NCBI RefSeq assembly: GCF_048128805.1
Contig: NC_136019.1
Coordinates: 17,567,381 to 17,631,380, forward strand
Direction of reading: 5' to 3'
From: Centroberyx gerrardi
Taxonomy: Eukaryota > Chordata > Actinopteri > Beryciformes > Berycidae
DNA: 64,000 bases
This document shows, one piece after another, positions 15,691 to 61,270 of this stretch. The notes under the pieces are model-generated. The model was given only the letters and a program-made list of their open reading frames with translations. It searched no databases and was not told where the DNA came from. The position numbers and the translations under genes are program-made. Position 1 is the first letter of the stretch; each line of letters begins with the position of its first letter.

Positions 15691-17709
15691 ATGATGGAGC
15701 TAGGAGCAGAGAAGATGATGGTGTACATTCTCAATGTTTTCCTGCTCTGTAATCTGTGTAAGTAACAAATTTCCACTTGTGGGATCTTTTCATGAGAGTC
15801 TACACACACAGATTGATTATACGATTTACACTTCCCGCTTTTCTGTTTGTTTCAGGTGTGGCACAGTTCAATGACATCTCTCAGCCTGTTTCTTTCCAAA
15901 CTGCGGAGCTGGGAGACCCAGTTACTATTGAATGTCAGATAAACAGTGTTATAAGAAGTAGAGTATGGTACAAATTAACTACTGGAAGGAGACTAGAGTG
16001 TGTGGCATCAATACATACTTCCAATAGTCACCATTATTCAGTAAACTTTAATGGCATCAAAAATGACTTGAGCATATCTGCTACAACGTGGGAGGACATT
16101 GGAACATACTACTGTGGAGTGTTATATTTGAACTCCATTGAATTTGGAACAGGAACCTTTCTGATGCTAAAAGGTATTTTATATGTGCAATTTACCATTA
16201 AACTTGCATCCCAGGCTAAATGAACATGAATGTGAACTTCATGTCAGTGATCACAATTCATTTGGTTTCTTCCCCAAGGTCCAAAGATGAACAGTGACTC
16301 TGTTGTTCAGCAGCCAGTGTCTAAGTCAGTCCAGCCAGGAGACTCTGTAACTCTCAACTGTTCTGTTCACACTGGCAACTGTGCAGGGGAAGACACTAGT
16401 GTCTTTTGGCTGAAAAACTCACAAAATTCTGGTCCTGAAATGATTTACTACTCTGGAAATAAGAATGACAGCTGTGAGAAGACTGAGACTGGCTCTCAAC
16501 AAACTAGCTGTGTCTACAACCTTCCCAAGAAGAACCTCAGCTCTGCCGATGCTGGAACCTACTACTGCGTTGTGGCTTCATGCGGGGAGATCCTGTTTGG
16601 AAATGGGACCGAGCTCAATATTAAAAGTAAGACATCAAAGCTAAAGATGTGAAGGATTTCATTCCAAGATGCTATATATTGATTTTGAGGGGGGGGGGGG
16701 GGGGGGGATTCCTGAAATGCATAAGTTGATAATTAAAAGAATACAGGTGACCCCATCCTCTATAATATTTTAAATGATGCGTACACAGCAAATTTTCCAG
16801 TGTAGATCCAAATGTAGATGTTTTTTTCAGTGACAATTATTTGGAGGTGACAAGTGTTAACTGGAAAGATATAAAGCTGATATGGCTCTGGTCTAAAAGT
16901 GTTGAATTAACTTTGATTGTGTGGACTTATATTAAAACTAGCAGTGTTCATTTTTACACTCTCAACATTAAATTAACACTGACGATTTTGCTGTGCATCT
17001 CAATTTTTATATTAATGTCTGCAACCAATGTGAGAGACCAGAAACCATTCAGTGTGTTTTGTTTTGTTTTTTGAAATGGCAGTTATTGCACTTACAGCTT
17101 TTTTTATTATGCTTATTCTCTTTGGTGTTAAGGAAACTTAACGGCACTTGACCTGAGTCCAACTGTTGTTGCACTGGCTTTGTCAAACATCGTTCTTGGG
17201 ATGGCAACACTTCTACTTGTATGGGCACTTTGCAAGAGTCGGAGCAAAGGTCCCACAGGTATTGCAAATTCCACATTATAATCATTAGCTGTACATCTGT
17301 ATCAGAAGAGTGACATATTCTCTTAAATTCTGTAGCATTGACAGTAGTTATCTTTGACTCTCTCTTCAGAGGAAACTGATGGATCTTCTGAAAGCAATCA
17401 GGTAATGCAATTCTTTTTTTTTTTAATTACCAACCACTGATTTTACTCAAAGTTCAACATTGACATTGCCACATGTACATTTGCATGGCATATTTGTCTG
17501 TCTGTTTTCCATTATACCTTTCTGTCTCAAACTGTCAGAACAAGTCTCTAATACTTTATTTCCATTTCCATCTTCCTCAGACTAGTGATGCAGTTCACTA
17601 TGCAGCAGTGAGTTTGGCTCCCAGAAGCTCCTCCTCCAGGCCGGTCAAAGTGAAATACAGTAGAGACGCTGTATTGTATTCTGAGGTCAGGCACCGTCAA
17701 CAGGACTGA
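15691..17709 (+). CDS. NITR gene A: inhibitory-type receptor (V + I domains, TM, two ITIMs)
   Basis: Six exons: 15691-15757 (signal peptide), 15856-16173 (V), 16279-16626 (I), 17133-17258 (membrane), 17370-17401, 17581-17709. All borders have AG/GT and phases fit, giving 339 residues. The V domain has Cys49, Trp60, YYC at 107-109 and J-like FGTG at 119-122. The I domain has six cysteines and ends CGEILFGNG. The membrane helix is about 255-277. The tail carries two ITIMs, VHYAAV (Tyr304) and VLYSEV (Tyr330), which in this family recruit SH2 phosphatases to dampen leukocyte activation. A polyadenylation signal AATAAA lies at 17757-17762. It differs from gene B at only a few residues. Ligand unknown. 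NITR identity rests on the J-like motifs and six-cysteine I domain. Confidence 0.88.
16688..16707. repeat. Poly-G run in intron 3 of gene A
   Basis: About 20 consecutive G. The homologous place in gene B (24058-24070) has about 13. Confidence 0.9.
16783..16995. mobile_element. MITE in intron 3 of gene A
   Basis: The ends ACACAGCAAA...CCAGTGT and ACACTGACGATTTTGCTGTG are imperfect inverted copies. The same element sits at the same intron position in B (about 24146-24362), E (about 49082-49310) and G (about 57770-58005), and in truncated form in D (about 39093-39250). It therefore predates the duplication of these genes. Confidence 0.65.
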
Positions 17710-17762
17710 GAGGTTTAGTCCTGGACAGGTGGAGATATGAGGGAGAATTAATATCAAATAAA

Positions 17763-20419: not shown

Positions 20420-20424
20420 AATGC

Positions 20425-21330: not shown

Positions 21331-21333
21331 CGC

Positions 21334-21720: not shown

Positions 21721-21778
21721 TAAGGCACTGTCTTTTGCATATCAGTCCGCACCAGAGTGTATCAGGCGCAAGGATACA

Positions 21779-23059: not shown

Positions 23060-25067
23060 ATGATGGAGCTAGGAGCAGAGAAGATGATGGTGTACATTCT
23101 CAATGTTTTCCTGCTCTGTAATCTGTGTAAGTAACAAATTTCTACTTGTGGGATTTTTTCATGAGAGTCTACATACACAGAGGTGATTATATGATTTACA
23201 CTTCCCGCTTTTCTGTTTGTTTCAGGTGTGGCACAGTTCAGTGACATCTATCAACCTGTTTCTTTCCAAACTGCGGAGCTGGGAGACCCAGTTACTATTG
23301 AATGTCAGATAAACAGTCTCATAAAAAATAGAGTATGGTACAAATTAACTACTGGAAGGAGACTAGAGTGTGTGGCATCAATACATACTTCCAATAGTCA
23401 CCATTATTCAGTAAACTTTAATGGCATTAAAAATGACTTGAGCATATCTGCTACAACGTGGGAGGACATTGGCACATACTACTGTGGAGTGTTATATTTG
23501 AACTCCATTGAATTTGGAACAGGAACCTTTCTGATGCTAAAAGGTATTTTATATGTGCAATTTACCATTAAACTTGCATCCCAGACTAAATTAACATGAA
23601 TGTGAACTTCATGTCAGTGATAACATTAATTTGGTTTCTTCCCCAAGGTCCAAAGATGAACAGTGACTCTGTTGTTCAGCAGCCAGTGTCTAAGTCAGTC
23701 CAGCCAGGAGACTCTGTAACTCTCAACTGTTCTGTTCACACTGGCAACTGTGCAGGGGAATACACTAGTGTCTTTTGGCTGAAAAACTCACACAATTCTG
23801 GTCCTGAAATGATTTACTACTCTGGAAATAAGAATGACAGCTGTGAGAAGACTGAGACTGGCTCTCAACAAACTAGCTGTGTCTACAACCTTCCCAAGAA
23901 GAACCTCAGCTCTGCCGATGCTGGAACCTACTACTGCGTTGTGGCTTCATGTGGGGAGATCCTGTTTGGAAATGGGACCGAGCTCAATATTAAAAGTAAG
24001 ACATCAAAGCTAAAGATGTGAAGGATTTCATTCCAAGATGCTATATATTGATTTTGAGGGGGGGGGGGGGAATTCCTGAAATGCATAAGTTGATAATTAA
24101 AAGAATACAGGTGACCCCATCCTCTATAATATTTTAAATGATGCGTACACAGCAAATTTTCCAGTGTAGATCCAAGTGTAGATGTTTTTTTCAGTGACAA
24201 TTATTTGGAGGTGACAAGTGTTAACTGGAAAGATATAAAGCTGATATGGCTCTGGTCTAAAAGTGTTGAATTAACTTTGATGGTGTGGACTTATATTAAA
24301 ACTAGCACAGTGTTCATTTTTACACTCTCAACATTAAATTAACACTGACGATTTTGCTGTGCATCTCAAATTTTATATTAATGTCTGCAACCAATGTGAG
24401 AGACCAGAAACCATTCAGTGCGTTTTGTTTTGTTTTTTGAAATGGCAGTTATTGCACTTACAGCTTTTTTTATTATGCTTATTCTCTTTGGTGTTAAGGA
24501 AACTTAACGGCACTTGACCTGAGTCCAACTGTTGTTGCACTGGTTTTGTCAAACATCGTTCTTGGGATGGCAACACTTCTACTTGTATGGGCACTTTGCA
24601 AGAGTCGGAGCAAAGGTCCCACAGGTATTGCAAATTCCACATTATAATCGTTAGCTGTACATCTGTATCAGAAGAGTGACATATTCTCTTAAATTCTGTA
24701 GCATTGACAGTAGTTATCTTTGACTCTCTCTTCAGAGGAAACTGATGGATCTTCTGAAAGCAATCAGGTAATGCAATTCATTTTCTTTTATTACCAACAA
24801 TTGATTTATACTCAAAATTCAACACCGACGTTCCAACATGTAAACTTTGTATAGCCTGTCTGTTTTCCACTAGACCTTTCTGTCTCAAACTGTCCGAACA
24901 AGTCTCTAATACTTTATTTCCATTTCCATCTTCCTCAGACTAGTGATGCAGTTCACTATGCAGCAGTGAGTTTGGCTCCCAGAAGCTCCTCCTCCAGGCC
25001 GGTCAAAGTGAAATACAGTAGAGACGCTGTATTGTATTCTGAGGTCAGGCACCGTCAACAGGACTGA
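23060..25067 (+). CDS. NITR gene B: inhibitory-type receptor, near-twin of gene A
   Basis: Six exons: 23060-23126 (signal), 23226-23543 (V), 23648-23995 (I), 24499-24624 (membrane), 24736-24767, 24939-25067, giving 339 residues. Phases and splice sites match gene A. V differs from A mainly near the start (QFSDIYQ versus QFNDISQ) and before the conserved Trp (SLIKNRVW versus SVIRSRVW). The J-like motif is FGTG. The I domain has six cysteines and ends CGEILFGNG. The membrane segment has one Ala-to-Val change (VALVLSN). ITIMs VHYAAV and VLYSEV are intact. AATAAA lies at 25115-25120. Role as for A: predicted inhibitory surface receptor of immune cells, ligand unknown. The high similarity to A suggests recent duplication or gene conversion. 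Confidence 0.88.
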
Positions 25068-31083: not shown

Positions 31084-32664
31084 ATGACACCTCCGAAGTT
31101 TGCTTTTTATCTGACATGTCTATTCTTGGGGAGGATGGGTAAGTTTTACCTTTTTAGACTGCAGTTTGAATCCTTTAAACTGTAAGGTCAATCTTCATAT
31201 GATTGCTTCTAACATTTTTTAATGTATTCTGCAATACAGTATGTACATTACGATTTACTCTCTGTCATGACATAAAATTAATTGTGCTTTTGCTATTTTT
31301 ACTTCAGATCATATGACAACTCTAAAACTGTCCTCATCTGTACGTCAAGAGAGTGGTCTTGCATCAGTTAATGTTGGCGACAACGTGATTTTGCAATGCT
31401 TCTGTGAAGGTGACGTTGCAGCAAAGTTTTACTGGTATAAGCTAACACTGGGACAGAAACCAAAGCTCATGTCTACCTTCTACAAGTACGATAAAAATGG
31501 CAGTTTTCATGATGAATTCAAGGACAATCCACGCTTCATACTGGACACTGGAAATGGTAAGAATCACTTGAAGATCTTAGATTTGCGCCTTTCAGACTCA
31601 GCGACTTATTTCTGTGCAAGCAGCTATTCCTTTGACTTTGCATTTGCGGAGGGAGCTATTCTCAGTGTAAAGGGTTCGGGTTCCAACATCCAAGCTTTCA
31701 TCCATCAGCCAGCGTCTGAGACCATCCAGCCAGGAGGCTCTGTGACTCTGAACTGTACAGTACACACTGGGACCTGTGACGGAGAACACAGTGTTTACTG
31801 GTTCAGAAGCTCAGGAGAATCTCGTCCAGCAATCATTTACACCCATGGAGTCAGGAATGATCAGTGTGAGAGGAAACCCAAGACCCAAACACAGACCTGT
31901 GTCTACAACTTCCCAATGAAGAGCCTGAATGTTTCTGATGCTGGGACCTACTACTGTGCTGTGGTCTCATGTGGGGAGATACTGTTTGGAAATGGGACCG
32001 AGATGGACATTGAACGTAAGTCACATTTTAGCAGAGGCTGTCTCATTTCACAAATAGTTGTGATTACTCCCTCACCAAACTTCAGATTAACATTAACAGA
32101 AAAAAGCAGAACATTTTGCAATGTGTCCTAATGTCTGGATCTGTGCAGATGGGGATTCTGTTGTCTTAGTGTATTTCTTGATTGCGGCATTGGCATTCAC
32201 CACCATCCTGGTTTTTGTCCTGGCTTTCTCTGTGTACAAGATGAACAAGAGCCAATGCACAGGTAATTCATATTCTTTGTATTTGATAGCATATATTCAC
32301 TGTACATGGCATTTCAGTAAGAGGGCTTTTCATAATATTTTCTCAAAAACAGATTCTCAACCAAGGTCAGCTGCCTCTATTTCAAATGTAGAGGTGAGTC
32401 TTTTCTATTTACATCAACTGTTGTATTACTGTACCAAGATATTTTTATAGCACAACAATGGCATGTTTCTGTGGGCTTCTGTTATATTGCTGTCATGTGG
32501 AATATGTTACATTATGGTTATTTACCAATTATACTTTTTGTTACCAGGGCCAAGATGCAGACAACCTCCATTACGCTGCTTTAAGTGAAAACAAATCCAA
32601 CAGATCAAGAAGAAAGAGGGACAACACCAAGAGTGAATGTGTGTACTCCAGCATAAGGCAGTAG
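31084..32664 (+). CDS. NITR gene C: inhibitory-type receptor with V and I domains in one exon
   Basis: Five exons: 31084-31138 (signal), 31308-32015 (V plus I), 32149-32262 (membrane), 32353-32393, 32548-32664, giving 344 residues. V has Cys49, Trp61 and YFC, but its J-like motif is degenerate (FAEG instead of FGxG). I follows without an intron, has six cysteines and ends CGEILFGNG. The membrane helix is about 259-281. The tail has a canonical ITIM LHYAAL (Tyr315) and a near-ITIM CVYSSI (Tyr339). Its V domain is closer to that of minus-strand gene H than to A, B, D, E or G. Predicted inhibitory immune-cell receptor; ligand unknown. A basic run RSRRKR lies between the two tyrosine motifs. Confidence 0.85.
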
Positions 32665-42830: not shown

Positions 42831-43019
42831 GGAGACAATAGCTACCCACCCCCTATTGATGCTGACCCTGTACCCCTATCCTATCCTGCTCATATCCCAG
42901 TGCTCACTAGCAGGCCTAGACACCAGCTCTTTGTTAAGGCCAGGTTTCAGGTCTGGAAATCCAGCCACTCTAATCAGTATTCTCCTCCAAAACATAACTC
43001 CAGTTGCATCAGAAACTGT

Positions 43020-44812
43020 TGTTATCAAGTTAATGTTACAGAATGTTAGATCCCTGAACAATAAATCTTTTATCTGCAATGATTTAATCACTTCATCCTG
43101 ATGCCGACTGAAATCTGGCTTAAACCAAAAGACTACTGTGGTGCCCTTAATGAAGCTCTCCCCCCCACCCCCACCCCCGCCAATTTCTCCTACCTCCACA
43201 ATCCTAGACCCTCTGGCCAGGGAGGGGGAGTGGCTGTTATTCACAGTAACAAGCTAGCATGTAACCCTGTGCCCTGTGTACTAGTCTACCGCCTTGCTGA
43301 ACTGCTTTCCATAATAATGCCTAATCATGACAGAATCCTTATTCTTGGTGATTTTAATATTCACATTTGTTGCCCTGACAATACCTTTGACCGGGACTTC
43401 TTAACATTACTTGAATCTTTTAACTTGTCAGTTCATGTCTCTGGGCCAACACATGATCAGGGACATATTCTAGATCTTATTATATCTCATGGTCTGAGTC
43501 TCGAGAATCTAGAGGTTTTAGATAGAGGAATCTCTAACCACTCCAGTATTAGTTTTGAATTGTTGTGTCATGTCCCCTCTAGGATCAAATCTGCTCCCAT
43601 TCGTTTCCGCCCCATTGGCCCCTCACACCTGTTGAATTCTCCCATGTATTCCTCTCCTCTCTTACCTACTCCTCCCCCTCTCATCAGACAGCTGACTTGT
43701 TGAATAATTTTAATGACGTTTGCCAGACCACCATAGACACTTTGGTACCCTTCAAAATTAAGCAAAAACATTTTTTCCTCCTGGTTGACTGATCCAGTGG
43801 TCTGTTTCCTAAAGAGGGAGCGGAGGAAGGTGGAGAGAAAATGGAAATCCTGCAAACTCAATGTTTTCTATATTCACTTGAAAGATCTCATGAAAGAATA
43901 TAATGTAAAGGTTAGGGAAACCTGTGCTCTATCCTTCTCCAGGCTCATCTCAGAAAATTCTCATAACCCAAAGATTTTCTTCCACACTATCAACACAGTT
44001 GTCAATGCTCCTTCTAGTACTGCTCTTAACCATTCTCCTGAGGTCTGTGAACATTTCTGTTCATTTTTTTTACCAAGAGAAGATATACGGAATCAAATAT
44101 TCACTCCTGCATGTGCTCTCCTTGATACCGGCATCTTCAACCAAGAGGTCAGTTTTGACTCATTTGATCCTATATCTGTAGAAAACCTCAAGAACATCAT
44201 AATGCATATGAAATCTTCTTGCCCCCTAGATATTGTTCCTACAAGGCTGCTCAAAGAGGTCATCGACTCTGTGTGCCCTAGTATTTTAGCTATTATTAAT
44301 AGTTCCCTCATTTCAGGCTCAGTGCCTCCTTATTTTAAGCATGATCTTACCCAACCGCTTCTTAAAAAAAACCTACACTTGACTCCTCTGTTCTTAGTAA
44401 TTTTAGAGCTATCTCCAAACTTTTATCCAAAGTTTTAGAGAAAGTTGTGTACAACCAGCTGTGTGAGCATTTGACTACAAATAACCTTTTTGAAAAATTT
44501 CAATCTGGCTTTTGCCCATGCCACAGCACAGAAACGGCTCTTCTTCGGGTTACCAATGACCTTCTTTTAGCAGCTGACTCAGGACAATGCTCCATTCTAA
44601 TCCTCCTTGACCTTAGTGCTGACCATTCGATTCTCATTGACCGCCTTCATCATTTAATAGGCATTTCTGGCTCTGCTCTTAACTGGTTCTCCTCTTATTT
44701 CTCAAACAGACAGTTTTCAGTTAGTTTAGGTGACACAGTTTCATCTTCTCATCTCTTAAGGAATGCCTCTGAGATTTACAATGCTGGATGGCTCAAAACT
44801 TCTTACAGTTAA
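43020..44812 (+). pseudogene. LINE ORF2 remnant (endonuclease and reverse transcriptase)
   Basis: Several frames must be joined. 43020-43100 carries NVRSLNNKSF. 43101-43703 carries ETEIWL-like text at its start, then QGGGVAVIHS and LGDFNIHI, with an internal deletion after VLVYR. 43785-44438 carries the RT N-terminus (PLDIVPTRLLKEV). 44447-44812 carries fingers/palm motifs, but the LSAAFDT aspartate block is damaged (LSADHSILI). Catalytic residues are lost in both enzymes. Confidence 0.75.
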
Positions 44813-45702
44813 ATGACAATAAATCTGAAATCACCTTGTTTGGTCCACCTTCCATCACAACCACAATTCAACAACATCTTGGTTTTTTAGCTGCTAACGT
44901 TAAGTCCTCAGCCCGGAACCTGGGAGTTTTCTTTGATAATGATAATGATAATGACTAGCTTCAACACACAGGTGAAAAACGTTGTCCAGTCCTGCTTTTA
45001 CCGGTTTTACCAGTTTTGCTTTTACCTTAGAAATATTTCTAAAATTAAATCATTTTAAAATTATGCTGATTTAGAAAAAGTTACCCACGCTTTTATTTTC
45101 TCTCGCCTAGATTACTGCAATTCTTTATACTCCACCCTCAATAAGAAAAACTTTTCATGTCTACAATTAGTCCAAAATGCAGCAGCCAGACTTTTAACTC
45201 GTACAAGAAGATTTGAACAAATCACCCCAATCTTAGCCTCCCTTCATTGGCTACCCATTAGTTTTAGAATTGATTTTAAGATTTTATTGATTACTTTTAA
45301 AGCACGGCTCGGTCTAGCTCCCTCTTACATCACAGACCTTTTAACCCCATACGATGCAGAGCACAGCCTGAGATCCTCTGGCAAGGCCCTTCTGACAGTT
45401 CCTCGGTCAAGGCTAAAGACTAGGTGATCGTGTGTTTGCTATTAGGGCACCTTCCCTTTGGAACAGCCTGACAGATATCAGGCGGGCAAACTCAGTAGCC
45501 TCCTTCAAATCCCTTCTCAAAACTCACTTTTTTAGACTTGCTTTTAATACTTGATTCATTGCTCTTATGTTCTTTTGTTTTAAATTTGCATGTCTCATGT
45601 TGTTTTACTTTCCTTTTTACTTTGGGTTGTTTTTATTGGTTGTTAATCTGCTTTTGTAAAGCACTTTGTAACTTTGTTTTTAATAAGTGCTATATAAGTA
45701 AA

Positions 45703-45746: not shown

Positions 45747-47959
45747 TACTTATACCGTTAACTGCTTTCAAATAACCTGCATGCCAGCAGGGTGACGTGG
45801 CAATCTTTTAAAGCACCTTGACCAAATGCTCTGCTGATGACTCCCCCTAGTGAAAACTGAATTGTCGTACTTATGATCAACTAAGCGACTGGCCCGTGTA
45901 CTTCGTTTCGTACCTTTTTATTTTTCTCTCTCTCCCTTTTCCTTTATTTTTCATGGTCCACCAGATACGTTTTTGATCTGGTATTTAGATATGCGTGTTG
46001 GAGCAAACACAGAGCCTTTGCATTCAGTGCTGTACATTCCAATAAATTCGGATGTGCCTGTGGACATTGGCCTTTATCCGTTTCCTTCTTGGAGGTGGGG
46101 TTGGGTTGAGCTAGAACGGACAGAAGGGAGGATGGGCTGGGATTGGGATGCGTGGGTAGGAAGTTCTGGCTATGTATGCTGAAAATGACTGAATGTCAAC
46201 CAACCAATTATTTAATATATTGGATGTACTGGCTAAATTTGAAAACTAAATAAAAAATACTGATTTTAAAAAGCCAGTGCATATCCTGTACAGGCCCAAA
46301 ACATGTATTTAATTCAGTTCAATGCACTGAAGCACTGCAACACGGTTATCAGTTAAATCACCTAAATCCACTAACGATACCACAAGGTAATAATGTTACC
46401 TACCTTTAAAATTTGGTATGGTAGCAGAAGACGTGTTATCAAATTACTGTTTACAACTACCGTTACTAAAAATTGTGGAATATTTAGTTTCAGTAACAGG
46501 AGACTGTCAGATGGAGTACAATGCTGCTGGTCTACTGGTCTGCGGGTCGCCAAATGACAAACGTGACGTTTTGTGCACATCAAGCGGATTAGAGATAGAT
46601 TTAGATCAATTTGACCAACTTTTTATTTTGTGGCGGTGTACACATATGAGCCTATGTATGGGAAACACTGTATCTCGCAGGAAAAGAAACCCTCTAGAGG
46701 CCATTTCACAAAGCGCTGACAACTGACTGACTGACAGACCTGAATTTGCCTCCCGATGCCCGCAGGTACGCCATGGGAAAAAGCTGTGGAAAAACACAGA
46801 CCTTTTGTGTTTCTCAAAATGAAGACCACATTTCCCATAAACCCCACTGCATCCTGTTGCAAAGAGGATGTTGCTACTTGACCCCCCACCCCCTTCACCT
46901 CCCCAGCATTTGTTTTGAAGATCACGAAGAAAAATAAGACCCAATGCATTCTGACCAGGTAAGCTAAAAGCTGACAGTTTAAACTATGCAGTTAGAATAG
47001 AATAGTGGCACCCAGTGTCAAATGCAGTGTAGAGGCCTGTAGAGGCTGCCAGCCTTCGTGGAGATGGAGGGCAACTAAACCCCAAACTCAAATCTGGGTA
47101 AAGCCTGACATCTAATGGTAAATAGCAGGATACTGAAATTGCAATTTTCTATTGGCTGATCTTTGGTGCCAGGTGATGCCACCTTCTATCAAGTACAACA
47201 GGTGGTGACATCACCTGGCATCAGTTTTAGTTGGCCCAAGAACAGTTGTTTTTGTAAAAAACCTTTTCTGTTTATTTCACCTTTTCCTGAATTTGTTACC
47301 CGTATTCTAGGTTATTTGTTACCATCCTTGTGGGTCAATAAACCCCTTAATTTTGAGCATTCTACCTCATACCTCATATCTAGACTCATATCTATCTAAT
47401 TCCTGTGAAAAGCTAAACCTTTGACTTCCTGTTTCTCTGGAGAGTATGCAAGTAAACAACTTTTTCAATTCGACCAGGCTCTTATTGTGGTTTAAGTGTC
47501 TATAGTCAATGCCATTTAGTAATACTATACTATATCATTATATGTTATCATTTTTATTAACATAACAATGATAGGATAAACATTGAATGTAAAATGTAAT
47601 AATATAACATTGAATTATGACACTCTTTCTTGCCTCTCTCAGATGGTTTTCAGCCCATCTCAATCCAGAAAGCAAAGCTTAGAGACAATGTGACAATAGC
47701 GCTCCATTTCCGATACAAAGTTGAACTCTGCCAGGACTGTTAATCATAGAAAACCAAAATGAAATGTTTTTTACTTCATTGTTAACCAACAGATTTTATC
47801 CACTCGGCAGCCAATCAGGTATTCTGCAAGATGAATATGAGGAACCAATCAGAAACCTGACAGATCTGGCATGATGTAGGCAATGTTGCTCTTGATGAAT
47901 CTATTAAGACTGCTGTCGCTTCAATAAGTCAGAACTGCTGTGGAGAAGAAGCAGAACAA
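45747..47959 (+). promoter_or_regulatory. Upstream region of NITR gene E
   Basis: Noncoding. 45780-46190 is unassigned. 46190-46870 matches 53743-55165 upstream of G apart from one inserted element there. 46800-47030 matches 36640-36960 upstream of D and includes the empty site of the solo LTR at 47020-47030. 47330-47630 is shared with G and D. CCAAT boxes lie at 47811-47815 and 47845-47849, ahead of the leader exon. Confidence 0.55.
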
Positions 47960-50100
47960 ATGATGGAGCAAGGAGCAGGGAAGAAGATGGTCTATCTTCT
48001 AAATGTTTTTCTGATCTGTCATCTGTGTAAGTAACAAATTTCCACTTGTGGGATCTTTCATGAGAGTCTACATACAAATGTGATTATATGATTTCCTGCT
48101 TTTCTGTTTGTTTCAGGTGTGGCACAGTTCAATGACATCTCTCAGCCTGTTTCTTTCCAAACTGTGGAGCTGGGAGACCCAGTTACGATTGAATGTCAGA
48201 TAAACAGTGTTATAAAAAGTAGAGTATGGTACAAATTAACTACTGGGAGGAGAATACAGTGTGTGGCAACAATAGACACACAAAGAAATCAGATTAAATT
48301 TGGCAATCAGTTTAATCAATTTAATCACCGTTATTCAGTGAAACTTGACGGCATCAAAAATGACTTGAGAATATCTACTACAACATGGGGCGACAGTGGC
48401 ACATACTACTGTGGAGTGGTATATCAAAACTTCATCGAATTTGGACCAGGAACCTATTTGATGCTAGAAGGTATTTCATCTGTTCAGTTTACCATTAAAA
48501 CACTCACATCCCAAAAGTAAATTAACATGAATATGAACATGTCAGTGATAACATTCATTTGGTTTCTTTCCCAAGGTCCAAAGATGAACAGTGACTCTGT
48601 TGTTCAGCAGCCAGTGTCTAAGTCAGTCCAGCCAGGAGACTCTGTAACTCTCAACTGTTCTGTTCACACAGGCAACTGTGCAGAGGAATACACTAGTGTC
48701 TTTTGGCTGAAAAACTCACAAAATTCTGGCCGAGTAATGATTTACTACTCTGGAAATAAGAGCGACAACTGTGAGAAGACTGAGACTGGCTCTCAACAAA
48801 CTAGCTGTGTCTACAACCTTCCCAAGAAGAACCTCAGCTCTGCAGATGCTGGAACCTACTACTGCGTTGTGGCTTCATGTGGGGAGATCCTGTTTGGAAA
48901 TGGGACCGAGCTCAATATTAAAAGTGAAGGTAGGCAAAGGTAGATAAGACAAGGGTTTAATTTCAAGATGCTATATCTGGAATTTTGATGTGATAAAATT
49001 CCCTGATTGCAAAAATACAGATGACCCCATCCTCAATTTTTGAGCCAATGTCTTAAGATAGCTAATAACTCATATGATACATACACAGCAAACTTTCCAG
49101 TGTTCATAATGTTGATTTTTCAGTGACAGTTATTTGGAGTGTTGACTGGAGAGATATTTGTTCACTCATACAGCTGATATGGCTCTGGGGTGGGTGTCAA
49201 AACCACCGTCAAAATCTGTTAAATTATGGTGTGGATTTATATAAACACAGGCATAGTGTTGATTTTTACATTCAGTTTTATTAGCACCAACGATTGTTCT
49301 GTGTATCACACAAGTATTTTTATATTAATGTTTGCAATCATTCTGGGAGAGTGTACATCAGGCTTTTCTTTTTGCTAGGTATTGCACTTGCAGTTTTTTT
49401 TTTTTATTCTAAAGTTAAATACAGTAAGGTTTGTTTATTCTCTTTGCTGTGAAGGAAACTCCACCTTGACCACACCACTTGACTGGAATCCAATTGTTGT
49501 TGCACTGGCTTTATCAAACATCGTTCTTGGGATGGCAACGCTTCTACTTGTATGGGCACTTTGCAAGAGTCGGAGCAAAGATCCCACAGGTATTACAAAC
49601 AATGCATTATAAGTACATTATCAGCTCTACATTAGCTGTACATCTGTATCAGATGCAGAGTGACATTCTCTTATATTCTGTAAGAAATGGCATTAACAGT
49701 AGTTATCTTTGACTCTCTCTTCAGAGGAAACTGATGGATCTTCTGAAGGCAATCAGGTAATGCAATTTTTGCTTTTCTTTTTGCCTAAAATTGTTCATTT
49801 ATGCCTAAAGTTCTCTTATGTACTGTAATATAGTGTGTCTCGGTAACAAGCTCAACACCCACATTGCCACATGTAAACTTTGTATGGCCTGTCTTTTTTC
49901 TGCTACATGTTTCTGTCTCAAACTGTCAGAACAAGTCAGTAATACTTAATTTACATTTCCGTCTTCCTCAGACTAGTGATGCAGTTCACTATGCAGCAGT
50001 GAATTTGGCTCCCAGAAGCTCCTCCTCCAGGCCAGCCAAAGTGAAATACAGTAGAGACGATGTATTGTATTCTGAGGTCAGGCACCGTCAACAGGACTGA
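47960..50100 (+). CDS. NITR gene E: inhibitory-type receptor
   Basis: Six exons: 47960-48026 (signal), 48117-48470 (V), 48576-48929 (I), 49455-49589 (membrane), 49725-49756, 49972-50100, giving 356 residues. V is the longest of the group (extra residues around KFGNQFNQFNHRYS), with J-like FGPG and the RRIQC extra cysteine. The I domain has six cysteines but carries its own changes (AEEYTS, SGRVM, KSDNC). The donor after I differs from its paralogs: GTGAAG at the usual place is poor, and GTAGGC six bases later is better and in phase, adding two residues. ITIMs VHYAAV and VLYSEV are intact. It lies tail-to-tail with F. Confidence 0.87.
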
Positions 50101-50833
50101 GAGGTTTAGTCCTGGACAGGTGGAGATATGAGTGAGAATGAATATCAAATGTATATCTCTTGTTGACTCTCATACATAAAGAAGGTTAAAATATGACCAA
50201 AGACCTCGCTATTAAGTACTTTGTGAAACATGAACAAGCCAGCCACTTAGCACTTCTTCAGTGTAATTAAAGCTGTGCTAGGCAACTTCCACCTTTGCGT
50301 CTCCAAATGGCAGCGAGAGGTAACTGTTTGAATTTTTAGGACTTCAAAACCCAGAAATGATATAATGCAATGTCAGTAAACTGCCCACGGCACGCTCATG
50401 TTTACCAACCCAGCCGGTCTGTGATCATTTGGGAAGTTCTAATGTTGTTAAGACTGGAGTATTTTTACATTATCATCTTGCCTAGTGCAGCTTTACTGTA
50501 AGCTTCATAACAATGATAATGCAAGCAACTAGCTGACTTTTCTATATTGTGGTATTCTTAAATCCTTAAGCTAATGAAGATGCTTAAAATGCTACATTCA
50601 CATGCAACTTCATTGCATGTGTTAACCATGTTAAAAGAAACTGCATTTTTTCTCAAAATATATTTATTGAATGTCAGTTTATATAGACACAAATATTGAC
50701 AATGTCTTCATCAAAAATAAATTTTATGAGTCAGTCACAATGAAAGAAGAGTGCAATGTAATAAACACAATTTTATAAGTCTGTATTATAACATTGTAAT
50801 TAGCCTACTCTTCTGTGTAATTGCTGTTCATGT
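50101..50833. other. Intergenic region between convergent genes E and F
   Basis: Matches 58789-59533 between G and H. No separate gene. A minus-strand AATAAA (reads TTTATT at 50834-50839) could serve F. Confidence 0.6.
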
Positions 50834-50947
50834 TTTATTTCAGCTGTAATAAAAAATGTTTAAATGTGCAAGTCTGCACCTACAACTGAACCTGTTGAAC
50901 TTATTCACCTTAACCTGGACATTGCATACTCCAAACCAGACTCTGCA

Positions 50948-51808
50948 TCACTGAGTTTTCCAATTCTTAGTGAAGTAGGCCAAGAAACAAATGGTTAGAG
51001 AGAGCAAGAGAATCCCACTCCTAGTGATGGACAGACAGACTAAGATTCTCATGTGTGCTGTTAGATCTTCAACACCATTTTTAATATGCAGCTTGCTTCT
51101 GCTGCCAAACAGTATTTCCCCACACGAGGCCACGGCACAGTAGTAGGTCCCAGCATCAGAGGAGCTCAGGTTTGTCTTTTGCAAATGGTAGACACAGCTC
51201 TGTGAAGCAGACCCTGGTTTAGAGATCTCCTTACACCGATCCCCATGGATGTGAAGGACTCCTGGGCGAGATCCATGTCTGAACCAGTAGACACTGTGTT
51301 CTCCATCACAGGTCCCAGTTTGTACTGTACAGTTCAGAGTCACAGAGGCTCCTGGCTGGACGGACTCAGACACCGGCTGCTGGACAATCTCTATGAGGTT
51401 TGTTCCTGAAACCACAGGAAATAAATTAGCAGAGAAGCTGTTTAACGTAAATGAAAGCAGTGACTGTAATATTCCTAATAGAACTCTGTTTGGCCTTTCT
51501 AAGATTTTTATCAGATTCTATCATATTGGGCAAATAAATATGATCTAATTTTAGCTATTCTTCTATTCTTCTAGTATTCTTTTACCTTGAGTACGAGCTA
51601 ATGTGGATCAGAATAAACAAATAAATGAATCTGTATTGAAATGTGACTGTCTTTTATGTGCTGACTAGATCAGAAAGATGTAATGCTATAACAATATGCT
51701 CATATTCAAGGTTTAGCCTTAAAATTAGCATAATGGGCTCAATGTGCCCTGTCTACTGCTAAAGGTTCAACTTACACATTCCGCATAAGTATCATACAGG
51801 TCCATCAT
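50948..51808 (-). pseudogene. NITR gene F: V-less, leader-frameshifted copy of gene H
   Basis: Minus strand. Exons left: leader 51808-51776 and I-plus-membrane exon 51405-50948. Compared with H, the V exon is gone: 755 bases corresponding to H 60365-61119 are missing. The leader exon is 33 bases instead of 40, so it is out of frame and no longer hydrophobic (MMDLYDTYAEC). The I exon is intact, with six cysteines, but its J-like motif reads FGSRS instead of FGSGS. The membrane segment with central Arg and the seven-residue tail are as in H. Without a working leader it is unlikely to be surface-expressed. It could still be transcribed. Confidence 0.8.
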
Positions 51809-52431
51809 CTCAAAGGTGATAATCTTCTCAGGAACCGCTATGTTTTCGATGAAAGAAAAAAATAGCACCTCAAAAATGGGGTTATGTGTGATTGGTTGGT
51901 AAGAGGGCCGAGCATTGCTGACACTTCATTTTGAACATCCGTCTTGGCCTGAGTGGGAAATGAATAAATAAATATGGCACATGTGAAATGTAAGTTATTC
52001 CAAGTTTTTTGTGCTACAGATTGTCATATAGACAATTACACTATTTTGTAACAAAAATGTAGCTGCAAAGACATTGTTGTCACTTTTTGGGGGAGGGGGT
52101 TGAGAACAAAAGGCATGTCAAAATAGCCCTGTGGTGAGTTGAGCTAACCCAGATTTTGAGCACAGAAGGACTGACACATCCTACAGGTCTGAGACTCACA
52201 TCTTAACCTATTTAAACAATTTGTTTCTGAATGTTTTCAGAATCAGTTGGTGATGTTAGTTATACTGCAAATCTAATACAAAAGTAGCATTTTTACTTTT
52301 ACTTTATTTTTGTATAAGCCACAGGATACACATAAAAGCTACCTATATCATGGACTGAGTGGGTTGAATGTGCAGTTTCAATGGGGGTCTTAAGTCAACT
52401 TACAAGTAGAAGCAGGTTCTACATATGAGTC

Positions 52432-52481
<50 letters not shown>

Positions 52482-53740
52482 TCCTATGTGTTATGTTTTG
52501 CTATGACATTGACCACACAGGGTGGGGTGGGGGGGTGTAAACATATCACTTCCTGTGGCATGATTAACAGGAAGAACCACCTCAGTGTTGCATGAGAGCT
52601 GCTGAGATGAACATGAGTTGGTCTCACATTTGTAGCATCCAGTCTGAACGTCGACTCTAGCACTTTGAGCACTTGGAAACACACCTTAAACTGATCTTTG
52701 CTTTTTACAGGGAGCGTTTGCGTGCTGACGAAAGCTGGCACAACGACATCACCTGGCAGCACTGATCAACTAATAGTAAAATCTGTCTGCACAAAATTGA
52801 ACTGAATTGAATATGCATATGCAGTAATTTCTTCAGATTATGCTTACGTGGTGTTTACGCATTGTTCCCAACATTAATCATAAATAAATGTCAACACACC
52901 CCTGTTTGACCTGGTTTGGACATAAACGCCAATCATCATCATGGGTCAGGCAAGTTCTCTAACAGCGCCAAAGCAGCCGTTGCATCATTATGCACAGCTA
53001 TATATTGTGAGCCATAATAGTGTATTGATATTTAACATGAATAGGTTTAATTTATGATCCAATGTGCGTTGTTTCTTTTTCCCACATCACTGTACAATTT
53101 GGGTGACAATGTGTAAACCTATTTACTTGTGCTATAAAACATAGGATGTTAATGCACACATCTATAAATGTTATGATATGCAACTCTATTGAGACCTAAC
53201 AGGCTACTATGGTGCGCTGAAAAGAGTCACCCAAATTCTTTCTCTTTGCCACCTTGCTATATCACACCCAGCTTAGCAGACTCATAAAAGTCTGTGTACG
53301 CATGGTGTACAGCATCCATGGAGGTACACTCATTCTCATGGCACCTATAAATAACAATTTGTGTGGAAAGCAGCATATGCATTCTTTTTGTGTGTGGGCA
53401 TCATTTATACATCTGGCCCCTGGTCGTTGCCGCTGAACGGAGTTCAATTCCCAGCATTTACACCCGTAAGTCACATTTTCATTCTTATTTAACCATGACC
53501 AAGCCCTTTCCCTAACCTTAACCAAGTTGTTTTAGTTGCCTAAACTTAACCGTAACCTTAACCCTAACCTTAACCAAAGTTATTTTACTTGCCTAAACTT
53601 AACCGTTAGCCAACGTTTGGAACGTAATTCAGTTTGTGGTGGAGAAATGTTATTTTCCCATAATACGTGTCCACAGCATGTAAATCGGCATTTCAGAGTT
53701 CGTGTTCATTTCACGGATTTGTGTGAGATCATGTTGGCTG
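51809..53740. other. Upstream region of gene F and spacer
   Basis: 51809-52880 matches 61271-62086 plus 63474-63640 and 63880-63960 beside gene H. A GT microsatellite occupies 52434-52479. 53500-53600 has CCTTAACC/TAACCCTAACC-type repeats of the kind seen at 18715 and 26085. No gene recognised. Confidence 0.5.
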
Positions 53741-55223: not shown

Positions 55224-56711
55224 TGTGATTTGATTATGTATATACAACTGACTATGTACTGTACTCCATTTGTTAAAAAAAAACACATTCCCTGTAAAAA
55301 ACCAAACAAAAAACTAAATAATAATAACTTAATAAAAGCTGCCTGAGCTTGAAAAAACAAACTAAAGACCTGTATGTCTACAGGCCCACGGCGCGTGTTC
55401 ACTTCAAATTCAATTCAATTCAATTCAATAATTCCACTAACGTTACTTAAATACCACAATGTAATAACGTTACCTAGCGCTAAGTTTGTAGGACAGCAGA
55501 AGACGATTATCAGGTTACTGTTTACAAATCCTGTTAGGCGTTAGGAGTTTGGAGCTAACTGTGGAATGTTAAGTTTCACTTTAGTTTTGACAACAGGAGG
55601 CTCTGTCTCCCGTTGCTCATCTCTAAGCCACAGCTGCCCTCTAGAGGCCATCTCAGGAAGCGTTACTAACTGCTGACTGCCTGCCTGCCTAACCTGAATA
55701 TGCCCCTCGATGCCCTCGGCTGAGCCGTGGGAAAACTATCAATACAGTCAGTGCAACGTTATAATCATTAGGCTACATATTTATAATGAAACAAAATATA
55801 TGAATCACGTATTTTTCCCATTGGAATAATATAGTGTTGTGTTTATACACAAGTTTTTATCTATTCTAGATTATCTCATATTTCTGACCCTCCTCTGGCG
55901 AGCCAAATCAAACGTCTTTGCGGGCCGAAACAGTTTGGGCACCCCTGTTCTATTGAGTACAACAATTGGTGACATCATCAGGCATCAGTTTTAGTTGGCC
56001 CAAGAACAGTTCTTTTCTGTCATTTTACCTTTTCCTGAATTTGTTACCCATATTCTAAGCTATTTGTTACCATCATTGTGGGTCAATAAACCCCTTAATT
56101 TTGAAAAGTCTACCTCATACCTCATATCTAGACTCATATCTATCTAATTCCTGTGAAAAGCTAAATCATTGTCTTCCTGTTTCTCTGGAGAGTATGCAAC
56201 TAACTACTTTTTCCATTCGACCGGCTCTTATTGTGGTTTAAGTGTCTATAGTCAATGCCATTTAGTAATACTATACTATATCATTATATGTTATCACTAT
56301 GTTATTAACATGACAATTATAGGATAAACATTGAATGCAAAATGTAATAATATAACACTGAATTATGACACTCCTTCTTTAGATGCCTCTCAGACACATG
56401 ATGCTTTTCAGCCCATCTCAATCCAGAAAGCAAGGCTTAGAGACAACGTGACAACAGCGCTCCATTTCCAATACAAAGTTGAACTCTGCCAGGACTGTTA
56501 ATCATAGAAAACAAAATGTTTTTTACTTCATTGTTAACCAACTGATTTTATCCACTCGGCAGCCAATCAGGTATTCTGCAAGATGAATATGATGAACCAA
56601 TCAGAAACCTGACAGATCTGGCATGATGTAGGCAATGTTGCTCTTGATGAATCTATTCAGACTGCTGTCGCTTCAATAAGTCAGAACTGCTGTGGAGAAG
56701 AAGCAGAACAA
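54655..56711 (+). promoter_or_regulatory. Upstream region of NITR gene G
   Basis: Noncoding. A segment of about 400 bases (54655-55080, beginning CACTAACGATACTT) has a second, shorter copy at 55435-55745 and a third upstream of E at 46370-46750. A TA microsatellite lies at 55184-55217. 55965-56700 matches the E and D upstream blocks. CCAAT boxes lie at 56563-56567 and 56597-56601. Confidence 0.55.
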
Positions 56712-58788
56712 ATGATGGAGCAAGGAGCAGGGAAGAAGATGGTCTATCTTCTAAATGTTTTCCTGATCTGTCATCTGCGTAAGTAACAAATTTCCACTTG
56801 AGGGATCTTTCATGAGAGTCTACATACAAATGTGATTATATGATTTAGGCTTCCTCCTTTTCTGTTTGTTTCAGGTGTGGCACAGTTCAGTGACATCTCT
56901 CAGCCTGTTTCTTTCCAAACTGTGGAGCTGGGAGACCCAGTTACGATTGAATGTCAGATAAACAATGTTAGAAGAAGTATAGTATGGTACAAATTAACTA
57001 CTGGGAGGAGAATACAGCGTGTGGCAACAATAGACACACATGGCAACAAAAATGACTTGAGCATATCTACTACAACATGGGGCGACATCGGCACATACTA
57101 CTGTGGAGTGGTATATCAAAACTTCATCGAATTTGGACCAGGAACCTATTTGATGCTAGAAGGTATTGTATCTGTTCAATTTACCATTAAAACACTCACA
57201 TCCCAAAAGTAAATTAACATGAATGTGAACATAACAGTGATCACAGTTCATTTGGTTTCTTTCCCAAGGTCCAAAGATGAACAGTGACTCTGTTGTTCAG
57301 CAGCCAGTGTCTAAGTCAGTCCAGCCAGGAGACTCTGTAACTCTCAACTGTTCTGTTCACACTGGCAACTGTGCAGGGGAATACACTAGTGTCTTTTGGC
57401 TGAAAAACTCACACAATTCTGGTCCAGAAATGATTTACTACTCTGGAAATAAGAATGACAGATGTGAGAAGACTGAGACTGGCTCTCAACAAACTAGCTG
57501 TGTCTACAACCTTCCCAAGAAGAACCTCAGCTCTGCCGATGCTGGAACCTACTACTGCGTTGTGGCTTCATGCGGGGAGATCCTGTTTGGAAATGGGACC
57601 GAGCTCTATATTAAAAGTAAGGCAAAGGTAGATAAGTTAAGGGTTTCATTTCAAGATGCTATATATGGGATTTTGATGGGATGAAATTACCTGGAATGCA
57701 AAAATACAGATGACCCCATCCTCATTTTTTGAGCCAATGTCTTAAGATAGCTAATAACTCAAATGATACGTACACAGCAAACTTTCCAGTGTTCATAATG
57801 TTGATTTTTCAGTGACAGTTATTTGGAGCGTTAACTGGAGATATATTTCTTCACTCATAGAGCTGATATGGCTCTGGGGTGGGTGTCAAAACGGTCTGAA
57901 AAGTGTTAAATTAAATCTGATGGTGTGGATTTATATAAACACAGGCAGAGTGTTGATTTTTACACTCACTTTAATTAACACCAACGATTTTTCTGTGTAT
58001 CGCACAAGTTTTTTTATATTAATGTTCGCAATCATGCTGGGAGAGTGTACATCAGGCTTTTCTTTTTGCTATTGCACTTGCAGGTTTTTTTTTATTCAAA
58101 AGTTAAAAACAGTAAGGTTTGTTTATTCTCTTTGCTGTGAAGGAAACTCCACCTTGACCACACCACTTGACTTGAGTCCAACTGTTGTTGCACTGGCTTT
58201 ATCAAACATCGTTCTTGGGATAGCAACACTTCTACTTATATGGGCACTTTGCAAGAGTCGGAGCAAAGATCCCACAGGTATTACAAACAATGCATTATAA
58301 GTACATTATCAGCTCTACATTAGCTGTACATCTGTATCAGATGCAGAGTGACATTCTCTTATATTCTGTAAGAAATGGCATTAACAGTAGTTATCTTTGA
58401 CTCTCTCTTCAGAGGAAACTGATGGATCTTCTGAAGGCAATCAGGTAATGCAATTTTTGTTTTTCTTTTTGCCTAAAATTGTTCATTTATGCCAAAAGTT
58501 CTCTTATGTACTGTAATATAGTGTGTCTCGGTAACAAGCTCAACACCCACATTGCCACATGTAAACTTTGTATGGCCTGTCTTTTTTCTGCTACATGTTT
58601 CTGTCTCAAACTGTCAGAACAAGTCTGTAATACTTAATTTACATTTCCGTCTTCCTCAGACTAGTGATGCAGTTCACTATGCAGCAGTGAATTTGGCTCC
58701 CAGAAGCTCCTCCTCCAGGCCAGCCAAAGTGAAATACAGTAGAGACGCTGTATTGTATTCTGAGGTCAGGCACCGTCAACAGGACTGA
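56712..58788 (+). CDS. NITR gene G: inhibitory-type receptor with shortened V domain
   Basis: Six exons: 56712-56778 (signal), 56875-57162 (V), 57269-57616 (I), 58143-58277 (membrane), 58413-58444, 58660-58788, giving 332 residues. V keeps the first Cys, Trp and YYC and FGPG, but lacks 22 residues present in E (66 bases, in frame) between IDTH and NKNDLS, that is most of the C''-D edge of the domain. The extra cysteine is Arg here (RRIQR), and the codon across intron 1 is CGT (Arg) instead of TGT. The I domain is close to those of A, B and D. ITIMs VHYAAV and VLYSEV are intact. AATAAA at 58863-58868. It lies tail-to-tail with H. Confidence 0.85.
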
Positions 58789-59533
58789 GAGGTTTAGTCC
58801 TGGACAGGTGGAGATATGAGGGAGAATGAATATCAAATGTATATCTCTTGTTGACTCTCTTAAATAAAGAAGGTTAAAATATGACCAAAGACCTCGCTAT
58901 TAAGTACTTTGTGAAACATGAGCAAGCCAGCCACTTAGCACTTCTTCAGTGTAATTAAAGCTGTGCTAGGCAACTTCGCACCTTTGCGTCTCCAAATGGC
59001 AGCGAGAGGTAACTGTTTGAATTTTTAGGACTTCAAAACCCAGAAATGATATAATGCAATGTCAGTAAACTGCCCACGGCACGCTCATGTTTACCAACCC
59101 AGCCGGTCTGTGATCATTTGGGAAGTTCTAATGTTGTTAAGACTGGAGTATTTTTACATTATCATCTTGCCTAGTGCAGCTTTACTGTAAGCTTCATAAT
59201 AATGATAATGCAAGCAACTAGCTGACTTTTCTATATTGTGGTATTCTTAAATTATTAAGTCAATGAAGATGCTTAAAATGCTACATTCACATGCAACTTC
59301 ATTGCATGTGTTAACCATGTTAAAAGAAACTCTTTGCATTTTTTCCTCAAAGTTTCATATTTATTGAATAATGTCAGTTTATATAGACACAAATATTGAC
59401 AATGTCTTCATCAAAAATCAATTTTATGAGTCAGTCACAATGAAAGAAGAGTGCAATGTAATAAACACAATTTTATAAGTCTGTATTATAACATTGTAAT
59501 TAGCCTACTCTTCTGTGTAATTGCTGTTCATGT
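58789..59533. other. Intergenic region between convergent genes G and H
   Basis: Copy of 50101-50833. A minus-strand AATAAA (reads TTTATT at 59534-59539) lies about 110 bases past the H stop. Confidence 0.6.
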
Positions 59534-59647
59534 TTTATTTCAGCTGTAATAAAAAATGTTTAAATGTGCAAGTCTGCACCTACAACTGAACCTGTTGAAC
59601 TTATTCACCTTAACCTGGACATTGCATACTCCAAACCAGACTCTGCA

Positions 59648-61270
59648 TCACTGAGTTTTCCAATTCTTAGTGAAGTAGGCCAAGAAACAAATGGTTAGAG
59701 AGAGCAAGAGAATCCCACTCCTAGTGATGGACAGACAGACTAAGATTCTCATCTGTGCTGTTAAGCCTTCAACACCATTTTTAATATGCAGCTTGCTTCC
59801 GCTGCCAAACAGTATTTCCCCACACGAGGCCACGGCACAGTAGTAGGTCCCAGCATCAGAGGAGCTCAGGTTTGTCTTTTGCAAACGGTAGACACAGCTC
59901 TGTGAAGGAGACCCTGGTTTAGAGATCTCCTTACACCGATCCCCATGGATGTGAAGGACTCCTGGGCGAGATCCATGTCTGAACCAGTAGACACTGTGTT
60001 CTCCATCACAGGTCCCAGTTTGTACTGTACAGTTCAGAGTCACAGAGGCTCCTGGCTGGACGGACTCAGACACCGGCTGCTGGACAATCTCTATGAGGTT
60101 TGTTCCTGAAACCACAGGAAATAAATTAGCAGAGAAGCTGTTTAACGTAAATGAAAGCAATGACTGTAATATTCCTAATAGAACTCTGTTTGGCCTTTCT
60201 AAGATTTTTTATCATATTTTATCTTATTGGGCAAATAAATATATCTTATTTTAGATATTCTTCTATTCTTCTAGCATTCTTTTACCTTGAGTAATAGCTA
60301 ATGTGGATCTGAATAAACAAATAAATGTATCTGTATTGAAACGTGACTGTCTTTTATGTGCTGAATCAGTTACATGGCACTGATGCCTATGAAGTCAATT
60401 CAAAATTAATGGTCATCAAACTGAAAATGACATTCTTTAAAATATAAATCCCTGTAGGCTGTGTTTATGGAGACACTAGGTTTTAATCTGACAGCAGCAC
60501 ATCAATGCAATCATCATATGGCTCCGGGGCTGGTGTTGACAACTATCTTAAGTGTTTGATTAATTCTGATGGGTGTGGACACTAGAATACTGTCAATTTT
60601 TACACTTTCAGTTAAATTAACACTGGAGAGTTTGCTGCGAGTGACTTCTATGATCATAAGATCATATGGAATGCAAACTTCTCCAAAAAGTAAAAGCAGA
60701 AACATCTGGAGTCAAACATTTCATCCAAAGTCTAACATACAATAACAGTGCAGTACCTTTCACGTTGAGAAAGACCCCCTCTCCAAACTCCACCACGTTG
60801 GAGTGTGAACTACCGCAGAAATAGGTAGCTGCATCGGAGCACTGGACGTCAGAGATGTGCAAATGATTGATCCCTTCATCCCTTTCCACAGCGAAGCGAG
60901 GTTTCTTTTTCAACGGGTGGAACGTGTCCTTCCGATCGTACTTATACACGGTAGACAGGAGCTGAGGTGTACTTCCAAAGGTCTGCCAGTACCAGGAGAA
61001 GTGCATCGCCACGTCGCTTTGATAGAAGCAATGTAAAGTCACATTGTCCCCAACACTGACTGATATAACCCCGCTGTCCTGTTTCACTGCTGAGGACTGG
61101 GCCACCGCTGACACATGAACTAGATCAAAAAGATGTAATGATATAAGAATACGCTCATATTCAAGGTTTAGCGTTAAAATTAGCATAATGGGCTCAATGT
61201 GTCCTGTCTAGTGCTAAAGGTTCAACTTACACATTCCGCAGAGAATAAGTATCATATACAGGTCCATCAT
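59648..61270 (-). CDS. NITR gene H: candidate activating-type receptor
   Basis: Minus strand, three exons: 61270-61231 (leader), 61119-60757 (V), 60105-59648 (I, membrane segment and tail in one exon). Phases fit, giving 286 residues. V has conserved Cys, Trp and YFC and J-like FGEG, and resembles the V of gene C. The I domain has six cysteines and ends CGEILFGSG. The membrane segment (about 255-279) holds Arg263, and the tail is only TKNWKTQ, with no ITIM. In NITRs and similar receptors, a basic residue in the membrane plus a short tail marks pairing with an ITAM adaptor such as DAP12; the pairing is inferred. The Arg is somewhat N-terminal of the segment's middle. Confidence 0.82.
60512..60650. 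mobile_element. Fragment of the NITR intron MITE inside intron 2 of gene H
   Basis: Text such as GGTGTGGACACTAGAATACTGTCAATTTTTACACTTTCAGTTAAATTAACACTG-like phrases (in shorter matching pieces) and the end GTTTGCTGCG match the right half of the MITE in intron 3 of A, B, E and G, here in the plus orientation against a minus-strand gene. Confidence 0.5.

Follow-up and report, generated by a model that had tools for sequence, protein, structure and literature searches.

A stretch of 64,000 nucleotides of contig NC_136019.1 of Centroberyx gerrardi (hereafter the window; G000:C23:17567381-17631380 in our numbering, the contig being C23) contains eight loci, A to H, with immunoglobulin (Ig)-type V and/or I domains, which we interpret as NITR receptor genes at the end of a larger cluster (Table 1). 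The genome searched is an assembly of 778.9 Mb in 278 contigs, and all gene models (exons, phases and joins) are predictions from genomic sequence. The first-pass annotation had placed seven apparently intact loci and a broken one at positions 15691-61270, and our analysis confirmed this: the interval is bounded exactly by two leader ATGs, that of locus A and, on the minus strand, that of locus H; all seven models of the intact loci are uninterrupted (282-354 aa), with consistent phases and GT-AG introns, and locus F carries the lesions of a pseudogene.

Three gene plans coexist, as had been proposed. The six-exon genes A, B, D, E and G consist of a leader, V, I, transmembrane (TM) and two tail exons, with phases 1-1-1-1-0; the five-exon gene C has a leader, a single V+I exon, a TM exon and two tail exons; and the three-exon gene H, on the opposite strand, has a leader, a V exon, and one exon that encodes the I domain, the TM segment and a short tail. 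Two of the predicted joins have alternatives: the donor of the I exon of locus E is weaker (GTGAAG), with an in-phase GTAGGC 6 nt downstream, and another acceptor for the V exon of locus H would move its start to 61119. The latter exon is phase-symmetric, so that it is predicted to be skippable without a change of frame. The Pfam V-set profile matched all ten exon frames compared with it (V and I frames of every locus but B; E-values 4.3e-25 to 1.4e-06), and six-cysteine I domains are present in 8/8 loci. J-like motifs end all eight I domains (degenerate in F, FGSRS) and all seven V domains (degenerate in C, FAEGAILSV), and in each of the seven V exons the motif is contiguous with the V sequence within one exon, as expected from the earlier description of antigen-receptor-like V domains without rearrangement. 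The two V lineages of that description are also apparent: the V domains of C and H are 50-53% alike, while either is only 22-32% alike to those of A, B, D, E and G. The tails of the latter five genes contain the immunoreceptor tyrosine-based inhibitory motifs (ITIMs) VHYAAV and VLYSEV, and the tail of C contains one ITIM (LHYAAL) and an ITIM-like motif (CVYSSI). Locus H has no ITIM, and an arginine lies within its TM segment (ILVCLSITRSGILLLSLTI).

Table 1. Predicted genes and duplicated units in the window (positions are those of the window; L, leader; C1 and C2, tail exons)
Feature	Position	Strand	Parts or remarks	Evidence
Locus A, inhibitory NITR, 339 aa	15691..17709	+	L 15691-15757, V 15856-16173, I 16279-16626, TM 17133-17258, C1 17370-17401, C2 17581-17709	gene model, Pfam V-set, ITIM/TM
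Locus B, near-duplicate of A, 339 aa	23060..25067	+	L 23060-23126, V 23226-23543, I 23648-23995, TM 24499-24624, C1 24736-24767, C2 24939-25067	gene model, duplicate block, ITIM/TM
Locus C, fused V+I, 344 aa	31084..32664	+	L 31084-31138, V+I 31308-32015, TM 32149-32262, C1 32353-32393, C2 32548-32664	gene model, Pfam, ITIM/TM
Locus D, inhibitory, 347 aa	37949..39964	+	L 37949-38015, V 38115-38459, I 38564-38911, TM 39332-39454, C1 39551-39582, C2 39836-39964	gene model, ITIM/TM
Locus E, inhibitory, 354 aa	47960..50100	+	L 47960-48026, V 48117-48470, I 48576-48923, TM 49455-49589, C1 49725-49756, C2 49972-50100	gene model, ITIM/TM
Locus F, H-type pseudogene	50948..51808	-	leader 51808-51776, V exon absent, I+TM exon 51405-50948 open	gene model, alignment to H
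Locus G, inhibitory, 332 aa	56712..58788	+	L 56712-56778, V 56875-57162, I 57269-57616, TM 58143-58277, C1 58413-58444, C2 58660-58788	gene model, ITIM/TM, V structure model
Locus H, activating-type (NITR9-like), 282 aa	59648..61270	-	leader 61270-61231, V 61107-60757, I+TM+tail 60105-59648	gene model, ITIM/TM
Duplicated unit E+F (convergent inhibitory + H-type pair)	47184..52599		92-96% to 55948-62095 over two main blocks, 88% at outer F/H end	
Duplicated unit G+H	55948..62095		holds H V exon, missing from E+F copy	

The assignment to the NITR family was made by the defining features described for medaka by Desai et al. 2008 (PMC2442602; here and below, statements on this paper and on PMC3463160 refer to the available part of each text), namely a six-cysteine I domain, J-like ends, an ITIM or a TM arginine, and V and I domains encoded in one exon or in two. 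All of these are found here: the I domain in every locus; J or J-like ends of V and/or I without rearrangement (the motifs in the V domain of C and the I domain of F being degenerate); type I membrane proteins with ITIMs (A-E, G) or a TM arginine (H), F being left out as a pseudogene; and both exon plans, on comparison of our predicted models with PMC2442602. Locus H combines the TM arginine, the lack of an ITIM and the separate V and I exons of NITR9. NITR genes are moreover clustered and linked either to men1/map4k2/rtn3 or to CSTF2/FGFRL1 (PMC2442602), and both kinds of linkage were detected by way of the Menin and CSTF2 markers, as location on the same contig rather than adjacency. The separate V and J segments, joined by rearrangement, of T-cell receptor (TCR) and Ig V genes were not found in these loci. 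A sequence search of the PDB with four queries returned antibody-derived entries among the best 60 of 2368 to 8794 matches per query, which is to be expected because the query is a V-set domain. The PDB includes catfish NITR structures, but these 60 matches per query contain none of them, all being antibody-derived, and we regard this comparison as uninformative for NITR identity. The sequence and fold matches to generic antibody and TCR V domains would equally suit another teleost V-type Ig family (CD300/pIgR-like, NILT or DICP), yet the six-cysteine I domain, the J-like motifs in both V and I, the ITIM or TM-arginine tails, both NITR exon plans and the two NITR-linked marker genes make such an origin extremely improbable. 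The NITR interpretation is thus supported.

The eight loci of the first-pass annotation are all present, but the 'dense cluster of eight' was understated. Using the I domain of C as a query we found 35 sites at E<=1e-5, at least 31 of them on C23 and at least four on contig C16; these counts cover I-domain sites, the search being aimed at these and not at V-only NITR genes, and are lower bounds, with 150 of 331 first-look candidates scored. The main cluster spans C23 17359115-17643778 (~285 kb), and the window is its end. When each site is classed by what its V, I and tail pieces match best, the 31 on C23 comprise 13 of the A type, nine fused of the C type, three of another fused type (one read, two assigned from V and I matches that are contiguous and from open frames of 322 aa), three of a further two-exon type (of which one, L018, was read and has an inhibitory-type tail), the loci H and F, and a fragment of an I domain 12 kb outside the window. 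H is the sole intact-looking activating-type gene in the set of loci with a tail that was read (a set that excludes L019, L020 and the four C16 genes). In the upstream part of the cluster (C23 17357615-17480840; L013, L015, L017-L020, L024, L026, L030, L036-L038) the spacing of similar sites suggests a unit of ~50 kb repeated about three times. The four I domains on C16 lie at 21.07-21.09 Mb, each adjoining a separate V frame. All eight matches to the Menin domain are on C23 at 20.93 Mb, 3.3 Mb from the main cluster, and both matches to the CSTF2 hinge domain are on C16 at 18.63 Mb, 2.4 Mb from the second cluster; the control search with the hinge domain gave a sub-cut-off match in E. coli. 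In medaka and zebrafish men1 accompanies the NITR cluster on chromosome 18/7, and CSTF2 that on chromosome 10/14 (PMC2442602). Because Menin is on C23 and the CSTF2 hinge on C16, the two clusters fit this synteny.

Within the window the cluster has grown by duplication. A and B form a duplicate block 97-98% alike, and the convergent pair E+F recurs as G+H. Since A and B are so similar and a single assembly was available, one may ask whether these duplicates are separated haplotypes set in tandem by the assembler; the blocks, however, lie in tandem on one contig with other sequence in between, and E+F and G+H differ by 4-12% depending on the block, each with its own V-exon deletion, so we hold such an artefact to be very unlikely. 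Downstream of D, positions 41001-41354 are 78% alike to the G-H spacer and end near the expected end of an H-like gene, and a long interspersed nuclear element (LINE) follows; D may accordingly have lost a convergent H-like partner.

Locus F is, on the evidence of its sequence, a pseudogene with three lesions. Relative to H, ~755 bp including the V exon are gone (deletion junction near 51664), the leader is 7 nt shorter, has lost its hydrophobicity and joins the I exon in the wrong frame, so that a stop is met after a few codons, and the J motif is damaged to FGSRS. The I+TM exon has remained open and retains its acceptor and the TM arginine, and the I domains of F and H differ at 0/52 four-fold degenerate sites, which argues that the two copies are recent or have recently been made alike. 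In zebrafish the Nitr9SS isoform, which has no V exon, was detected on transfected cells (PMC3463160), and together with the open exon this would allow F to be a living V-less activating receptor. The short, non-hydrophobic leader, out of frame and soon followed by a stop, and the damaged J motif make this highly improbable, and we rejected F as a functional V-less receptor on account of the leader frame. F is a V-less genomic copy like the isoform, but a broken one.

The most unexpected feature of the cluster is the difference between its V and I domains. Between the three lineages of A-type genes in the window (A/B, D and E/G) the synonymous divergence (dS) is 0.013-0.084 for the I exon and 0.198-0.315 for V, and the intron that follows I has an identity of 75.8-79.8%. 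Four-fold sites are polymorphic at 3/52 positions in I, 2/40 in the TM and tail exons and 6/27 in V, compared with 201/770 intron sites; by Fisher's test against introns I (p 0.0004) and tail (p 0.001) differ, and V does not (p 0.82). The same split appears in the whole cluster. In the 13 A-type genes the proportion of synonymous differences (pS) amounts to 0.166 for V and, 4.7-fold lower, 0.035 for I, a difference reached by 0/20000 permutations of codon labels; without three near copies the values are 0.167 and 0.031 (again 0/20000). Introns of these genes differ by 0.257 over the first 350 nt past I. In the nine C-type genes V and I share one exon, and pS is nevertheless 0.121 against 0.033 (3.7-fold lower; 7/20000 permutations). 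When this exon is divided into 30-codon blocks, with a final one of 25, pS is 0.147, 0.165, 0.023 and 0.143 in V, the third block also being low, and 0.074, 0.021, 0.013 and 0.013 in I. Pairwise distances in V and I are uncorrelated (r 0.00 for 78 A-type pairs, r -0.03 for 36 C-type pairs), and the sites of the I exon are strongly mosaic, the four-gamete test being failed by 31/55 pairs of informative sites in the A-type I exon and by 8/28 in the C-type I domain. The V domain of G is closest to that of E (0.954), and its I domain to that of D (0.991). The branching order of the five A-type I domains in the window (A, B, D, E, G) was not resolved by protein trees, with supports of 30-62.

We consider it likely that this split is caused by recurrent gene conversion of the I domain while V diverges. 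The split itself is a direct statistical observation, and conversion as its cause is what we infer. Low I divergence could instead stem from selection at the nucleotide level or from a lower local mutation rate, and the TM and tail exons of the A-type genes in the window, which are equally low in four-fold polymorphism (2/40) even though the intervening introns have diverged, suit this explanation in that the pattern tracks coding sequence. The four-fold sites of I are, however, not frozen, because they differ between subfamilies (A-C 10/30, A-H 19/36); V shows an intron-like divergence; and constraint alone would produce neither the four-gamete failures in the A-type I exon nor the uncorrelated V and I distances. 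We therefore regard constraint or a low mutation rate as unlikely, if the most serious of the alternatives, and prefer gene conversion.

The variability of V is concentrated in its putative ligand-facing loops. In the five A-type V domains of the window 18/24 ungapped positions in loops like the complementarity-determining regions (CDRs; limits set by landmark residues, by our own definition) vary, as opposed to 16/70 framework positions (p 1e-5). The ratio of nonsynonymous to synonymous proportions (pN/pS) is 0.70 in the loops and 0.46 in the framework; as pS is also higher in the loops (0.34 vs. 0.13), selection for change in them is not proven. The V domain of G is 22 residues shorter than that of E, with a gap that extends from CDR2 into strand D. 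An AlphaFold model of this domain (7 rows; mean predicted local distance difference test score, pLDDT, 84.6) has a V-like sandwich that matches the folds of antibody light-chain and TCR V domains; since the model is a confident one, the gap alone does not prove the G V domain dead. A single-sequence model of the V-I exon of locus C was poor (pLDDT 44.7) and was not used.

Several observations weigh against our interpretation. The NITR identity was assigned from defining features and linkage, and the splice joins are predictions. Low divergence is not restricted to I: the A-type lineages of the window are 88.5-98% alike in the leader-V intron, the divergence of the A-type V-I intron (0.093) is below that of V, and in the C type the intron that follows I differs by just 0.059. 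In C-type V domains 240/630 site pairs fail the four-gamete test, so conversion extends beyond I. A direct comparison of I with V at the four-fold sites in the window gives p 0.056, and an excess of dN over dS was not shown for V in the five A-type domains of the window (loop pN/pS 0.70). A permutation test of the longest shared run (five window genes, 10 pairs) has a lowest p of 0.0055, uncorrected, and just one of the ten runs is in the I exon (B-G, p 0.58); this test did not single out the variant-poor I exon, and the synonymous-divergence, permutation and four-gamete tests were made on the 13 + 9 genes. At four-fold sites the GC content of I exceeds that of V (0.45 vs. 0.29; 0.35 vs. 0.285), which fits biased conversion and also other causes. 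Taken together with these points, it is still very probable that the loci are NITRs at the end of a menin-linked teleost NITR cluster, in which the I domains are kept alike by conversion and the V domains diverge.

If expressed as modelled, the receptors would be germline-encoded type I membrane proteins with V and J pre-joined in one exon, where V is by analogy the likely ligand-binding part and the six-cysteine I domain would serve as a shared stalk or platform. The products of A, B, D, E and G, with two ITIMs, and of C, with one ITIM and an ITIM-like motif, would restrain lymphocytes, and H, with its TM arginine and no ITIM, would activate them through a Dap12-type adaptor; zebrafish Nitr9L signals through Dap12 (PMC3463160). 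The repertoire would grow by tandem duplication and shrink by deletion. After duplication the V domains would diverge, chiefly in the CDR-like loops, and the I domain would be homogenised between copies by gene conversion; for the window's five A-type genes the homogenised part would take in the TM and tail exons as well.

NITR9, the clustering of NITR genes and their exon plans have been described before. The medaka clusters on chromosomes 18 and 10 resemble those of C. gerrardi in having V and six-cysteine I domains, J-like motifs and a majority of ITIM genes, as well as a NITR9 with a TM arginine, tandem families, and a large men1-linked and a small CSTF2-linked cluster (PMC2442602). In medaka, NITR9 excepted, chromosome 10 holds the genes whose V and I domains are encoded by two exons, and the fused genes are on 18 and 21 (PMC2442602), whereas the menin-linked cluster here holds both kinds, with two-exon inhibitory genes (13 of the A type and three sites of the further type, one of them read) interspersed among 9 + 3 fused ones. 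The described genes of the Southern pufferfish and 11 genes of Tetraodon all have V and I in a single exon (PMC2442602), as in locus C, while here both plans coexist. Locus H resembles zebrafish Nitr9 (PMC3463160) in its V and I exons, its TM arginine, its lack of an ITIM and its skippable V exon, as implied by Nitr9SS; the I domain, TM segment and tail of H share a single exon. The medaka authors considered concerted evolution less likely to be primary (PMC2442602), in contrast to the concerted evolution that the I domain shows here. We found no report of conversion restricted to the I domain in NITRs among the matches listed by searches on NITR with gene conversion, where by title no match was about NITRs, or with concerted evolution, where PMC2442602 was the sole NITR work; papers on sea bass, catfish and Nitr9-Dap12 were outside this scope, so such a report may be in print, and homogenised I domains may already have been described in the study of the European sea bass cluster (Ferraresso et al. 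2009). A full-text literature search with the I-domain motif gave no match.

Other elements were noted in and around the clusters. Just past the main cluster there are V-set exons of another Ig family, distant from NITRs, with a CC motif in framework region 2 (L045 653-1108, which has a Pfam V-set match, and a similar frame at C23:17662034-17662453). Beside the C16 cluster we found two RNase A-like frames (L052 5981-6562 and C16:21094115-21094642, minus strand; the one tested matched the RnaseA Pfam family) and, on the minus strand of L048 (5869-6255), a weak FG-GAP (integrin alpha-like) frame below the Pfam cut-off. ITGA6 of medaka is linked to the CSTF2-type NITR cluster (PMC2442602). The window itself contains pieces of a BEL/Pao-like retrotransposon (4104-9751, minus strand; Peptidase_A17 and DUF5641, with rve and DUF1759 below the cut-off) and two LINE-like elements, one at 1563-4007 (minus strand) with frames for an endonuclease and an OSK/GDSL-type esterase, the other at 42119-45427 (plus strand) with endonuclease and reverse transcriptase matches below the Pfam cut-off.

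NITRs have been proposed as the equivalents, in fish, of mammalian natural killer cell receptors, and few of their ligands are known. The cluster offers, within one species, a clean inhibitory set together with one activating-type gene, and it mixes exon plans that are largely kept on separate chromosomes in medaka. On balance we favour, with some reservation, the view that NITR genes have evolved in two decoupled modules, in which conversion that fades within the single exon of the fused genes holds the I domain near-uniform in each subfamily, and the V loops diverge freely. Such a split into a constant and a variable part in a family of non-rearranging receptors can be checked in any related fish genome. 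If this view is true, the I domain must fit a common partner, and fish would have arrived at a germline-encoded repertoire that is divided in this way and needs no rearrangement.

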